The notes below the pieces were generated by a model. That model was given only the letters and a program-made list of their open reading frames with translations. It searched no databases and was not told where the DNA came from. A stretch of 64,000 nucleotides of DNA from Arenibacter latericius DSM 15913 (lineage in GTDB: Bacteria; Bacteroidota; Bacteroidia; Flavobacteriales; Flavobacteriaceae): assembly GCF_000424985.1 (NCBI RefSeq), contig NZ_AUKX01000002.1, positions 1 to 64,000 of the forward strand, in the 5' to 3' direction. A program made the translations under genes and the position numbers. Shown piece by piece: positions 17,730 through 21,086 of the stretch (within the stretch, counting starts at the first letter, position 1; each line of letters starts with the position of its first letter).

Positions 17730-18338
17730 ATGGCTTTTGAACTACCGAAGTTACCCTATGCGTATGACGCATTGGAACCTCATATTGATGCTAGGACCAT
17801 GGAAATACACCATACCAAGCACCATAATGGGTATACTACCAATTTAAACAATGCTATTGAGGGAACCGATATGGCAAACAAATCCATTGAGGATTTGTTG
17901 AAAAATATGGATATGTCCAACGCCGCAGTTAGAAATAATGGAGGAGGTTTTTATAACCATTCCTTGTTTTGGGATATTATGTCTCCAGACGGAGGCGGTG
18001 AGCCTACTGGCGAATTAGCTGATGCGATTAAATCTAGTTTTGGTTCTTTTGAATCCTTTAAGGATGCTTTTTCTAAAGCTGCAGGAACTAGATTTGGTTC
18101 TGGTTGGGCTTGGCTTTGTGTACATAAAGGTGGGAAGTTAGAAATTTGCTCTACTCCTAACCAAGATAACCCATTAATGCCAGATACAGGTTGCGGTGGA
18201 TTCCCAATCTTAGGCTTAGATGTATGGGAGCACGCTTACTACTTAAATTACCAAAACAGAAGGCCAGATTATATTAATGCCTTTTTTAACGTGGTAAATT
18301 GGGAGAAAGTAGCTGCTGCTTACGCAAGCAACAAGTAA
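17730..18338 (+). CDS. sodA: Superoxide dismutase, Mn-type by sequence
   Basis: This enzyme converts superoxide to oxygen and hydrogen peroxide. It has 202 residues. Metal ligands are recognisable: His in [12 protein letters not shown] (about 27), His77 in [11 protein letters not shown], and Asp164 and His168 in [10 protein letters not shown]. The second-sphere glutamine sits in TPNQDNPLM (about 145), the manganese-SOD position, in contrast to FeSODs, which carry it next to the second histidine. There is no signal peptide, so it is cytoplasmic. It forms a single-gene unit with its own terminator. Confidence 0.93.
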
Positions 18339-18383
18339 TTTAATCTTTTGCCACCGTTAACAGCGTGTTGGTAAAATATTTAA

Positions 18384-18424
18384 GTCCCGTCTTAATCATA
18401 GAATTAGGACGGGATTTTTTTATT
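18384..18424 (+). terminator. Rho-independent terminator of sodA
   Basis: TCCCGTC (18385-18391) pairs with GACGGGA (18408-18414), with extra pairs (TTAAT/ATTAG) closing a small loop. A run of seven T follows on the plus strand. Confidence 0.88.
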
Positions 18425-18439
18425 CTGGCGAGATGGTAG

Positions 18440-18517
18440 AAAATAGAAAAGGGCAGAGAAATCTCCACCCTTTTCATCCCAAATCTTACCATAAACTTAA
18501 CCTACTTATGCTATGGC
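18440..18517 (-). ncRNA. Tandem small RNA candidate, copy A
   Basis: Read on the minus strand, this unit starts 5 nt after a near-consensus -7 box TATTTTAG (18529-18522). It opens with the shared 39-nt block (18516-18478), in which CCAT and ATGG can pair to close a loop holding AGCATAAGTAGGTTAAGTTT. A terminator hairpin follows (arms 18463-18470 and 18451-18458, loop of 4) and a T-rich tail. The stem keeps pairing with two G-T wobbles although its sequence differs from the other copies. There is no conserved reading frame. Its function is unknown. Confidence 0.65.
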
Positions 18518-18788
18518 GAGACTAAAATAATGGTAATGGGAGATATAAAAAAGTTTTTTTATGAAATTTTCAATCATATATCCTATGTAAACAGATAAAT
18601 GATTGCATAGATGGCAATTATTTTTGTTAAAATACTGATTTTCAATAATCAAAGGTTGTAAGTTTTTTATCCTGCTAAGTTTGGTTAATACAGCAGGAGT
18701 TTTGGTAGTCTAATTGAAGCTAACGTAAAGTAATGGGGTTTGGAGGAAGTAGAGGAGATATTAAAAGAGGGTATAAATCTCTTGTTTA

Positions 18789-18864
18789 AAAATAAAAAGG
18801 CAGAGTTTTAAACTCTGCCTTTTTCCCCAAATCTTACCATGAACTTAACCTACTTATGCTATGG
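18789..18864 (-). ncRNA. Tandem small RNA candidate, copy B
   Basis: This is the second unit of the family. Its -7 box is a perfect TATGTTTG (18877-18870 on the minus strand), again exactly 5 nt from the conserved block (18864-18826). The ACCAT/ATGGT stem and the loop with TAAGTAGGTTAAG are unchanged. The terminator uses a different stem, GGCAGAG (18799-18805) with CTCTGCC (18813-18819), and a T5 tail on the minus strand. An ATG inside the block would give only ten codons here, which argues against a peptide. Confidence 0.7.
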
Positions 18865-19005
18865 TATAACAAACATATGTATAGCATTGGAAGGGAGAAA
18901 AGGTTTTGGTTGAACGTCTCTTAAATAGGTTGAAATACATGTTTGTGGCCAATTTCCTTAAAATAAAGCGGCTTGGATTTTGAGATAGAGGGGGCTGAAT
19001 TTTAA

Positions 19006-19083
19006 ACAATAAAAAAGGCGGGGAAATCCCCGCCTTTTTTGCCCCAAATCTTACCATGAACTTAAACCTACTTATGCTATGGT
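19006..19083 (-). ncRNA. Tandem small RNA candidate, copy C
   Basis: This is the third unit, nearest to purF. The -7 box TACTTTAG (19095-19088) is 5 nt before the conserved block (19082-19043), which differs from copy B by one extra T in TAGGTTTAAG. The terminator stem is GGCGGGG (19017-19023) with CCCCGCC (19028-19034) around AAAT, followed by T6. It could be read through from purF, but a purF terminator lies between. Confidence 0.7.
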
Positions 19084-19130
19084 GATACTAAAGTAGTAGT
19101 GCTCAGTTCGATTTTAATTATAATTGCGTT

Positions 19131-19166
19131 GAAAAGTGTTAATTATCGATGAAATACACTTTTTTG
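19131..19166 (-). terminator. Possible purF terminator
   Basis: AAAAGTGT (19132-19139) pairs with ACACTTTT (19156-19163) across a 16-nt loop, about 25 nt past the purF stop. The stem is AT-rich and could act in either direction, so this is a moderate call. Confidence 0.5.
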
Positions 19167-19187: not shown

Positions 19188-21086
19188 TTAATATGCTCTT
19201 TCGTTCTTGCCTTCATAAAAGTTTATAAAAGCCCTATTTACCACCCTGTTACCCCCTGGGGTAGGATAATCTCCCGTGAAATACCAGTCTCCTAAATTCT
19301 TAGGACATGCTTGGTGAAGGTTATCGATGGTTTGATAGATTATTTGGACTTCTGCTTTAATATCGGTCGGACTCAATAGCTCTCCAATTTTATCAGAAAT
19401 TTCATCATCAGTAAATGGAGCGTAAAACTCTTTTACATAGTTTATTACGTCGGTATCTTTGTTGTGTACCTGCTTAAGACATTTTTGGTAAATCTCTTCC
19501 ACAAGATGCATCGTATTTTGCTCTTCATGTAAGGTTAAAGCAGCCCTAAATGCGATGAAATCTTCTAGCTTAGCCATGTCTATCCCGTAGCAATCTGGGT
19601 AGCGGATCTGTGGAGCAGAAGACACCACTACAATTTTCTTGGGCGATAAACGGTCTAATATACCGAGTATACTCTTTTTAAGAGTTGTTCCTCTTACAAT
19701 ACTATCGTCTATAATAACTAGGTTGTCTCCCTTTTTTACAGAACCATAAGAGATGTCGTATACGTGTGCAACTAAATCATCTCTACTACTATCCTGAGTT
19801 ATAAACGTTCTTAACTTGGCGTCTTTTATGGCTACTTTTTCTATTCTTGGACGTACTTCTAAAATAGAATGTAATTCTTCTGCAGTAATTCTTCTACCAA
19901 TGGAAAGAATTTGCTCTTCTTTCTTTTTATTTAGGTAATTCTGTGCTGCAATTACCATCCCAAAGAAAGAGGTTTCGGCAGTGTTAGGGATATAGGAAAA
20001 GACGGTATTTCTTATATCTTCATCAATAGACTTTAAGATTAAAGGGAAAAGGAGTTTTCCTAGTTCTTTTCTTTCCTGATATATTTCCTTGTCGCTTCCT
20101 CTAGAAAAATAAATACGCTCAAAAGAACATGCCTTTCTTTCTGTAGGTTCTATGATTTTTTTGATTTTGACAGTGCCATTTTTTTTGATGATAATGGCAT
20201 GACCTGGATCTAGTTCTTTTACATCATCAAAGTCTACATTGAAAACGGTCTGAATGGCGGGTCTTTCAGAAGCCACTACTGCAATTTCATCGTCCATGTA
20301 ATAATAAGCAGGTCTTATTCCTGCTGGATCTCTAAGAACAAAAGAGTCTCCGTGACCTAATAATCCGGCCATTGTAAAACCTCCATCGAAGTTTTTTCCT
20401 GCCCTTTTTAAGATTTTGGCTACGTTTAATCTTTCTGCAATAAGTGGGGAAGCTTCTCTTTTGTTGTAGCCTTCCTTTTTTACCTCTTTGTATAGTTTTG
20501 CTACTGCATCATCTAAAAAGTGACCTATTTTTTCCATTACCGTAACGGTATCGGCCTTTTCTTTAGGATGTTGACCAATTTGGATGAGGTTGTCAAAAAG
20601 TTCATTAACATTGGTCATGTTAAAGTTTCCGGCAACAATTAGGTTTCGGTGCATCCAGTTGTTTTGTCTTAGAAAAGGATGTACATTTTCTATACTGTTT
20701 TTACCAAAGGTACCGTAACGCACGTGTCCTAATAAAACTTCACCTATATAGGGAATATGTCTTTTTTGTTTGGCAACATCATCGGCATATTCCGGATGTT
20801 CCTTAAAGCTTGTATTTATCCTATCGTTGATCTGGGAAAATATATCCTGAATTGGTTGCTTATCTATGGATCTAACTCGACTCATATATCTTTCGCCTAC
20901 CTCCATATCTAACTTAATACTGGCAAAACCAGCCCCGTCCTGTCCGCGGTTATGCTGTTTTTCCATCATTAGGTACATCTTGTTTACTCCGTAAAATGCA
21001 GTACCGTACTTTTCTTTGTAATACTCTAATGGCTTTAGCAACCTTATTAGGGAAACTCCACATTCGTGTTTAATGGCGTCGCTCAT
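19188..21086 (-). CDS. purF: Amidophosphoribosyltransferase, long Bacteroidota form
   Basis: This enzyme catalyses the first committed step of purine synthesis: PRPP plus glutamine to phosphoribosylamine. The catalytic Cys is at position 9 (HECGVSL) after an eight-residue propeptide. The class II glutaminase domain follows (KQHNRGQDGAGFAS, LGHVRYGTFG), and the phosphoribosyltransferase domain contains the PRPP loop VIIDDSIVRGTTLKKS. At 632 residues it is longer than the roughly 500-residue enzymes of other bacteria, with extra sequence in both domains as is usual in this phylum. It follows a PfkB kinase gene after a hairpin. Confidence 0.93.
   Translation of the reverse strand: MSDAIKHECGVSLIRLLKPLEYYKEKYGTAFYGVNKMYLMMEKQHNRGQDGAGFASIKLDMEVGERYMSRVRSIDKQPIQDIFSQINDRINTSFKEHPEYADDVAKQKRHIPYIGEVLLGHVRYGTFGKNSIENVHPFLRQNNWMHRNLIVAGNFNMTNVNELFDNLIQIGQHPKEKADTVTVMEKIGHFLDDAVAKLYKEVKKEGYNKREASPLIAERLNVAKILKRAGKNFDGGFTMAGLLGHGDSFVLRDPAGIRPAYYYMDDEIAVVASERPAIQTVFNVDFDDVKELDPGHAIIIKKNGTVKIKKIIEPTERKACSFERIYFSRGSDKEIYQERKELGKLLFPLILKSIDEDIRNTVFSYIPNTAETSFFGMVIAAQNYLNKKKEEQILSIGRRITAEELHSILEVRPRIEKVAIKDAKLRTFITQDSSRDDLVAHVYDISYGSVKKGDNLVIIDDSIVRGTTLKKSILGILDRLSPKKIVVVSSAPQIRYPDCYGIDMAKLEDFIAFRAALTLHEEQNTMHLVEEIYQKCLKQVHNKDTDVINYVKEFYAPFTDDEISDKIGELLSPTDIKAEVQIIYQTIDNLHQACPKNLGDWYFTGDYPTPGGNRVVNRAFINFYEGKNERAY

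Follow-up and report, generated by a model that had tools for sequence, protein, structure and literature searches.

A conserved small RNA array at the purF-sodA junction of Flavobacteriaceae, with a putative LytTR-type promoter box and predicted pairing at surface-gene start codons

Three sibling small RNA genes between purF and sodA

The window (the whole 64,000-nucleotide stretch of Arenibacter latericius DSM 15913 DNA analyzed here) carries three blocks of approximately 40 nt on the minus strand between purF and sodA (18516-18478, 18864-18826 and 19082-19043). The blocks align column for column and are near-invariant, as a preliminary description of this DNA had reported. Copy 1 has one additional T in its loop, and copy 3 has one T in place of C and ends with GGGA instead of GGGG. 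Each block begins 5 nt past a TAnnTTTG or TAnnTTTAG box, with exactly 5 nt between the box and CCATAG, and each is followed by a terminator hairpin with a T-tail. Both features had been described before and were seen again in all three copies, and comparison of the copy flanks bore out that the spacers are unrelated. Our analysis adds that copies 1 and 2 are preceded by a direct-repeat box, that copy 3 has a different, conserved promoter and that the purF-sodA location is shared throughout the family.

The -7 box of F. psychrophilum sigma-A occupies positions -12 to -5, according to excerpts of PMC9723704. Based on this spacing, we predicted the transcription starts given in Table 1 and RNA lengths of 72-73 nt. 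Each RNA is modeled as a short 5' hairpin, a single-stranded linker and a second hairpin with a U-tail, and the folding z-scores of the three RNAs are -4.2, -5.1 and -3.9. A separate inverted repeat (ATCCCGTC ... GACGGGAC), which resembles a sodA terminator, lies at 18380-18425 between copy 3 and the sodA stop codon.

Table 1. Features of the purF-sodA junction in the window.
Feature	Coordinates	Strand	Remarks
sRNA copy 1 (purF-proximal), ~73 nt	19011..19083	-	predicted start 19083; terminator hairpin 19040-19011; covariance-model match 19012-19082, E 2.3e-18
sRNA copy 2 (middle), ~72 nt	18794..18865	-	predicted start 18865; terminator hairpin 18824-18794; covariance-model match 18794-18864, E 3.6e-18
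sRNA copy 3 (sodA-proximal), ~72 nt	18446..18517	-	predicted start 18517; terminator hairpin 18474-18446; covariance-model match 18447-18516, E 6.9e-19
-7 box TACTTTAG of copy 1	19088..19095	-	
-7 box TATGTTTG of copy 2	18870..18877	-	
Conserved promoter of copy 3, without direct-repeat box	18522..18553	-	-7 box TATTTTAG at 18529-18522; kept in 67 unique last copies; weak box score in window
Direct-repeat box of copy 1 (GTATTTCATCGATAATTAACACTTTTCAACG)	19127..19157	-	PWM 25.8 bits, rank 2 in window
Direct-repeat box of copy 2 (GTATTTCAACCTATTTAAGAGACGTTCAACC)	18908..18938	-	PWM 32.9 bits, rank 1 in window
purF, upstream neighbor of array, same strand	19188..21086	-	
sodA, convergent downstream neighbor of array	17730..18338	+	

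Conservation was assessed with 401 rows, which yielded 379 unique 95-mers holding GATTTGG. These unique copies contain 43 distinct 41-nt bodies versus 165 distinct terminator arms, and a tail hairpin of 8 bp or more is retained in 375 of the 379 (median -18.5 kcal/mol, versus -4.9 kcal/mol after shuffling). The terminator stems therefore vary yet keep pairing among relatives, as had been proposed from the three copies. Near-invariant segments are found both in the loop (AGTAGGTTA) and in the linker (GGTA(A)GATTTGGG). The earlier suggestion that the conserved loop is the functional part thus holds insofar as the loop is near-invariant, but not for the loop alone, because the linker GGTA(A)GATTTGGGG is about equally conserved. 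Hairpin 1 forms 88.5% standard pairs over 31 distinct bodies; its covariation is weak, with two pairs changed on both sides, a number equalled by 38 of 500 shuffles. A one-base indel (GGTAAG versus GGTAG) separates clades and shifts the frame, which excludes a shared reading frame and agrees with the preliminary view that the block is not protein coding. Together, these comparisons strongly support a family of sibling sRNA genes in which the loop is conserved and the terminators vary.

We next compared the RNAs with described families. A search with the Rfam 15 covariance models returned no match at gathering score in the whole window, and a lax search gave 45 sub-threshold rows, none of which was Flavo-1. 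The best of these rows was STnc40, whose 33.9 bits fall short of its gathering score of 45 and whose alignment runs mainly through the terminator. The sRNA is therefore not Flavo-1 (RF01705), an identity that the preliminary description had considered, and the other Rfam families are rejected on the same search. Neither the sequence of the sRNA body nor a description of the purF-sodA sRNA was found in open-licence PMC main texts.

Distribution and promoters of the array across Flavobacteriaceae

The 39-mer of the body, allowing up to 3 mismatches, occurred in 30 of 100 relatives and its reversed control in none of 100, which speaks against a chance recurrence; this pattern detects only two of the three copies in the window. 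An exact-pattern scan of named genomes gave at least 120 loci, with Maribacter, Zobellia, Arenibacter, Allomuricauda, Robiginitalea, Eudoraea, Cellulophaga and Kordia among those listed. Because an exact pattern biases conservation, we built a covariance model from 33 sequences, a step that the preliminary description had proposed for the three copies. The model matches 240 of 299 Flavobacteriaceae genomes, representing 193 of 236 genera, with 1-7 copies per genome, and it matches 213 of the 249 family genomes of good quality. The searches were run with strict filters that can miss weak relatives; under these conditions, 33 of 246 genomes matched in an order-wide draw and 7 of 295 in a class-wide draw, all of them Flavobacteriaceae except for one weak match in each draw (E 5e-4 and E 9e-4, respectively). 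The genus g152, which is abundant in the draws and is probably Flavobacterium, matched in 21 of its 22 listed genomes.

The genomic location is also conserved. The window and 119 of 120 loci examined together contain 291 copies. In 116 of these 120 copy-bearing loci (window included), the immediate neighbor is purF on the upstream side and/or sodA on the downstream side, and 77 loci have both neighbors. In two of the other four loci (L077 and L089) contig ends cut the locus, and in the remaining two (L117 and L121) the array lies elsewhere. Eighty further loci, some of them overlapping, gave a similar picture, with purF and/or sodA within the stretch in 75; the other five consist of extra copies elsewhere (L222 and L269) and weak matches (L244, L245 and L265). 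Taken together, these data make it well supported by comparison that most Flavobacteriaceae carry one sRNA family at the purF-sodA junction.

Two kinds of exceptional loci were noted. The weak model matches at L244:1501-1558 and L245:1501-1576 (E approximately 1e-6) are not located near purF or sodA. They retain the linker GATTTGGGG but lack the loop AGTAGGTT, and perhaps represent another RNA family with the linker module in common. In several Arenibacter genomes, a rearrangement splits the array and leaves two copies behind purF and two before sodA, tens of kb apart (for example, L146 and L153 on the purF side, L052 and L081 on the sodA side).

Copies 1 and 2, like most of their relatives, have a direct repeat, GCATTTCATC-N10-GCATTTCATC, at a fixed place approximately 73 nt upstream. 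Among first and middle copies the repeat has a period of 20 (the autocorrelation is 8.1 at this lag and no higher than 2.6 at any other), and its first position is -75 or -76 relative to CATAG in 143 of 158 cases. When the window was scanned with a PWM, the promoters of copies 2 and 1 ranked at the top (Table 1); the next site scored 10.5 bits and a shuffled window reached 16.6. In a divergent set, where some loci overlap so that some copies are counted twice, 97 of 108 copies had a box score exceeding the 95th percentile for random positions, the box sits at -74 or -75 in 83 copies, and a few copies (L224, L264) have perfect repeats. In the final copy ahead of sodA, the repeat gives way to a long, conserved promoter sequence, approximately TTTGTTATTTCxCACAATACCAGTAATTTAGT in 67 unique copies. 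The siblings therefore differ in control more than in body. We consider the direct-repeat box at the sRNA promoters well supported by these alignments as a genuine element.

The spacing of this box resembles that of LytTR sites, in which two 9-11 nt repeats are separated by 11-13 nt, such as the GGCATTTCAT repeat that E. coli YpdB uses twice (excerpts of PMC4847170). By this published rule, a period of 20 fits 9-nt repeats with 11 nt between. The direct repeat GGCATTTCAT is similar to the GCATTTCATC of the sRNA box, but the period is 20 in this putative site and 21 in the yhjX site (PMC4847170, same excerpts).

A first box pattern, taken from the genus of the window, gave no excess in the window's own genome (16 matches versus 26 for the reversed pattern). 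Sharpening the pattern with divergent copies (GCATTTCATC-N10-GCATTTCATC, up to 3 mismatches) gave 72 matches in 24 genomes of 17 genera versus 2 for the reversed pattern; 9 of the 72 are sRNA promoters and 8 are one repeated sequence of G517. These eight identical box-like sequences lie near contig ends (L377 and L424), so the box there is probably part of a repeated element. We took 40 non-sRNA sites, and later 15 more, for gene context. In the first 40 box loci, all but two of the 41 sites fall outside ORFs of at least 90 codons. The genes associated with the box (hereafter box genes) include those for Big_9 lipoproteins, proteins with PKD or CHU_C-associated Ig domains, and CAP, beta-lactamase-family, DUF1800 and Sigma70_r4 proteins. 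A Sigma70_r4 protein gene follows the box at L396 and at L403, which come from genomes of different genera; a sigma factor may thus belong to the box regulon.

In three genomes, all of genus g152, a LytTR protein gene lies 145-265 nt behind the box; the LytTR-linked site at L376 is one of the two box sites inside an ORF. The window's own genome has 17 LytTR matches, one of which is broken by a stop codon (G000:C48:19540-19704, L189). Its best counterpart of the box-linked LytTR protein is L186, with 34-38% identity and E values down to 2e-44 (next best 6e-14), and no close box was found at L186. Given the adjacency in three genomes of one genus and the resemblance to the YpdB repeat, the box is most likely a response-regulator site of LytTR type, and the box-linked LytTR protein would be the regulator of the boxed copies. 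Alternatively, the box may be bound by an AraC-type protein.

Predicted pairing at the start codons of box genes

Contig C37 of the window's own genome contains a polysaccharide-type gene cluster with box-like sites before lipoprotein genes. One of these sites is strong (29.8 bits, before L301 ORF 2299), and the others score 7-13 bits, to be read against the 16.6 bits reached by a shuffled window. The leaders of L300 ORF 6092 and L301 ORF 2299 end with ATCTTAACTACTT and ATCTTAATTACTT right before the ATG, complementary to the RNA segment CATAAGTAGGTTAAG with a bulge. Those of L300 ORFs 9482 and 17439 end with CTTACT before ATGAAATTT, complementary to the RNA segment TTCATGGTAAG; ORF 9482 carries a CBM96 domain. 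Related lipoprotein genes of two genera have leaders that end with CTTAACTACTT, CTTAATTACTT, AATTTACTT or GACCTACTT right before the ATG. The TACTT-ATG start is also present in related lipoprotein genes of G003 (same genus) and G035 (another genus), and the G035 lipoprotein shares 39% identity with the ORF 6092 product over 144 residues.

We then measured pairing as the gain of the real RNA over shuffled RNA at start regions, with energies that ignore accessibility. The tests mix genomes, use a single sRNA variant and start codons assigned by us, and include some box genes that are orthologous to one another. With this measure, 24 box genes had a median gain of -3.04 kcal/mol versus -0.54 kcal/mol for 133 ORFs from the same loci (one-sided Mann-Whitney p = 3.2e-4); the longest contiguous match was only marginally longer in box genes (p = 0.053, 24 versus 133). 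A second set of loci gave the same result, with 4 box genes exceeding 55 controls in pairing gain (p = 0.0075). When the sets were pooled, a gain of -5 or better was found for 11 of 28 box genes versus 26 of 188 controls (p = 0.0023), of -7 or better for 9 of 28 versus 13 of 188 (p = 4.6e-4), and of -9 or better for 8 of 28 versus 5 of 188 (p = 2.5e-5); these cut-offs were chosen after the result for the first set, and all three that were tried are given. An earlier analysis of 18 hand-picked box genes (z = -5.65, 0 of 100 shuffles) is superseded by the test of all box genes with same-locus controls. Thus, predicted pairing with the sRNA at the start codon is better for box genes than for other genes at the same loci, and this pairing may bring about repression.

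Searches for specific motifs gave fewer sites. The TACTT-ATG start is present in 2 of the 28 pooled box genes and in none of the 188 controls, and a start matching the second module (TTAC[CT]-ATG) was found in 0 of 28 box genes and 0 of 188 controls. We searched 13 Arenibacter and 8 other genomes for the 17-mer AACTTAACCTACTTATG, allowing no more than 2 mismatches. Of the non-self matches, 11 were inspected; one lies exactly at a start codon and the others lie at none or not clearly at one. The exact site (L425, position 1534, minus strand, in another Arenibacter) is a loop complement, AATCTACTT, right before the ATG of a 259-aa lipoprotein gene that has no box within 300 nt. Matches to CCAAATCTTACCATGAA with up to 3 mismatches in the window's own genome numbered 24 non-self versus 20 for the control, and long complements are therefore not enriched genome-wide.

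We also examined genes outside the box set. SusC genes, used as a surface-protein control, had a median gain of -3.11, close to the -3.04 of box genes, but 0 of 30 SusC genes versus 8 of 28 box genes reached -9. In SusC leaders the z values were -1.18 for the loop, 0.03 for the linker and -3.03 for the whole 5' part, versus -0.35, -0.79 and -2.05, respectively, in 47 window genes. For start regions of genes neighboring the array (25 loci each, shared shuffles), shuffled RNAs scored as low in 0 of 100 cases for purF, 2 for pfkB, 6 for purN, 18 for sodA and 20-21 for the rest. purF was set aside as a target because its predicted duplexes lie for the most part in a GC-rich hairpin ahead of the gene. 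purN was rejected, since its start region in the window holds CCCCAAATC, which is absent from the other 47 purN leaders. At the 25 pfkB start regions the sRNA pairs better than in 98 of 100 shuffles, an observation for which we offer no explanation.

Proposed function and relation to known small RNAs

Comparison of the copies indicates that each sRNA opens with a short 5' hairpin whose loop reads AGUAGGUUA, continues as the conserved single-stranded linker GGUA(A)GAUUUGGGG and closes with a terminator. In the model that we favor, a LytTR-type response regulator would bind the direct repeat, which ends approximately 44 nt before the predicted start, and switch on copies 1 and 2, while copy 3 would be transcribed from its own promoter and supply sRNA independently of the regulator. 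Through two modules, CAUAAGUAGGUUAAG and UUCAUGGUAAGAUUUGGGG, the sRNAs would then pair across the AUG of surface-protein mRNAs and lower translation of these mRNAs. Because several of these candidate targets lie behind the same box, the sRNAs would act as a feed-forward brake on surface and polysaccharide-cluster proteins, with copy number setting the dose. On balance, we think it probable that these are LytTR-driven sibling sRNAs with two anti-start-codon modules directed at surface genes that belong in part to the same regulon; the regulator, the targets and repression are the deduced elements of this reading. More tentatively, a broader form of the model may apply, in which a core regulatory RNA of the whole family sits at one junction, often as a head-to-tail array, one LytTR regulator drives both the array and surface and polysaccharide genes, the two modules throttle those genes, and one copy is uncoupled from the regulator.

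Other explanations account for parts of these data. The sRNAs could instead titrate a protein by binding it, as CsrB and 6S RNA do, with the loop and linker as protein sites and the copies providing dosage. Loop and linker are near-invariant throughout the family, more so than pairing with changing mRNAs would need, and the lack of genome-wide enrichment of long complements points the same way; we nevertheless regard titration as unlikely, given the excess of pairing at box-gene start codons. Pairing with general mRNA targets that are not tied to the box regulon, such as SusC transporters and the neighbors purF and pfkB, would agree with the SusC signal for the whole 5' part and the SusC median gain, with the prominence of the purF and pfkB start regions, and with the loop complement at the box-less lipoprotein start of L425. 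This explanation appears quite improbable, however, because neither the loop nor the linker alone gives a SusC signal, the strong tail of the distribution is absent in SusC genes, and the purF duplexes involve mostly the hairpin before the gene.

The conserved location and the terminator that ends each block would also suit a cis element of the purF-sodA junction, with the blocks acting as repeated terminators or insulators, or as purF 3' ends, and having no function in trans. Several features make this very unlikely: every copy comes with a separate promoter whose elements are fixed in position, the terminator stems are much less conserved than the body, both halves of the split Arenibacter arrays keep copies, and the arrays of L117 and L121 lie away from the junction. 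Finally, although ATGGTAAGATTTGGG opens a 67-aa frame in copy 1, this frame differs between copies and is disrupted by the clade-separating indel, while the unrelated copy flanks and conserved site do not fit a transposon end; we give almost no credence to a small protein gene or a transposon end.

Flavobacteriaceae are major degraders of polysaccharides in the sea and in soil, and to our knowledge little is known about their small RNAs. The purF-sodA RNA is a highly conserved, family-wide sRNA outside Rfam, for which a putative regulator site and candidate targets can be read from the sequence. It probably helps to set the amounts of certain cell-surface proteins, and the coordination of surface and polysaccharide genes in flavobacteria thereby becomes directly testable.

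Within this group, RNA-seq of F. columnare revealed candidate sRNAs without Rfam matches (excerpts of PMC5395568), and F. psychrophilum carries the sRNAs Rfp1-89, of which Rfp18 affects metalloprotease mRNAs (excerpts of PMC9723704). The transcript may therefore have been seen already without being recognized as a family, and one of Rfp1-89 may be the purF-sodA sRNA. The Rfp RNAs resemble it in being conserved flavobacterial sRNAs, but Rfp18, which is said in those excerpts to pair through a third stem-loop, is set apart by this description from an RNA with two hairpins (PMC9723704). We regard the purF-sodA sRNA as a putative new family of a known kind, lying outside Rfam 15 and the searched PMC main texts.

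A close parallel in design may be LhrC1-5 of Listeria monocytogenes, in which five copies controlled by LisRK block the adhesin mRNA lapB: a loop and a single-stranded linker pair ahead of its start codon and hinder its translation (excerpts of PMC4132741). The flavobacterial copies are likewise near-identical, with their own promoters and terminators, and share a regulator site in their promoters, which in the window is present for two of the three copies. If the present reading holds, both systems would comprise several near-identical copies under one two-component system that pair through loop and linker before the start codon. The two differ in phylum, in the UCCC pairing motif of LhrC and in regulator class, and the targets of the purF-sodA sRNA are predictions (PMC4132741, same excerpts). 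In Bacteroides thetaiotaomicron, the FopS RNAs are paralogous sRNAs of approximately 65-70 nt that use their 5' part to pair with mRNAs for outer-membrane proteins at the start region; 14 members are described in Bacteroidaceae and classed as intergenic, antisense or 3'-derived (excerpts of PMC11697453). FopS and the purF-sodA sRNA share the phylum, short paralogous RNAs and pairing at start regions, which is predicted for the latter, but FopS, as these excerpts describe it, is not one array at purF-sodA. Homology to FopS is not convincing, since similarity to the FopS 5' consensus gave p = 0.0135 and 0.0485 with cheap gaps and lost significance with dear gaps (0.28 and 0.29; 2000 shuffles). 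Together, these parallels suggest that the multicopy, start-codon-pairing design of Listeria and Bacteroides also exists in flavobacteria.
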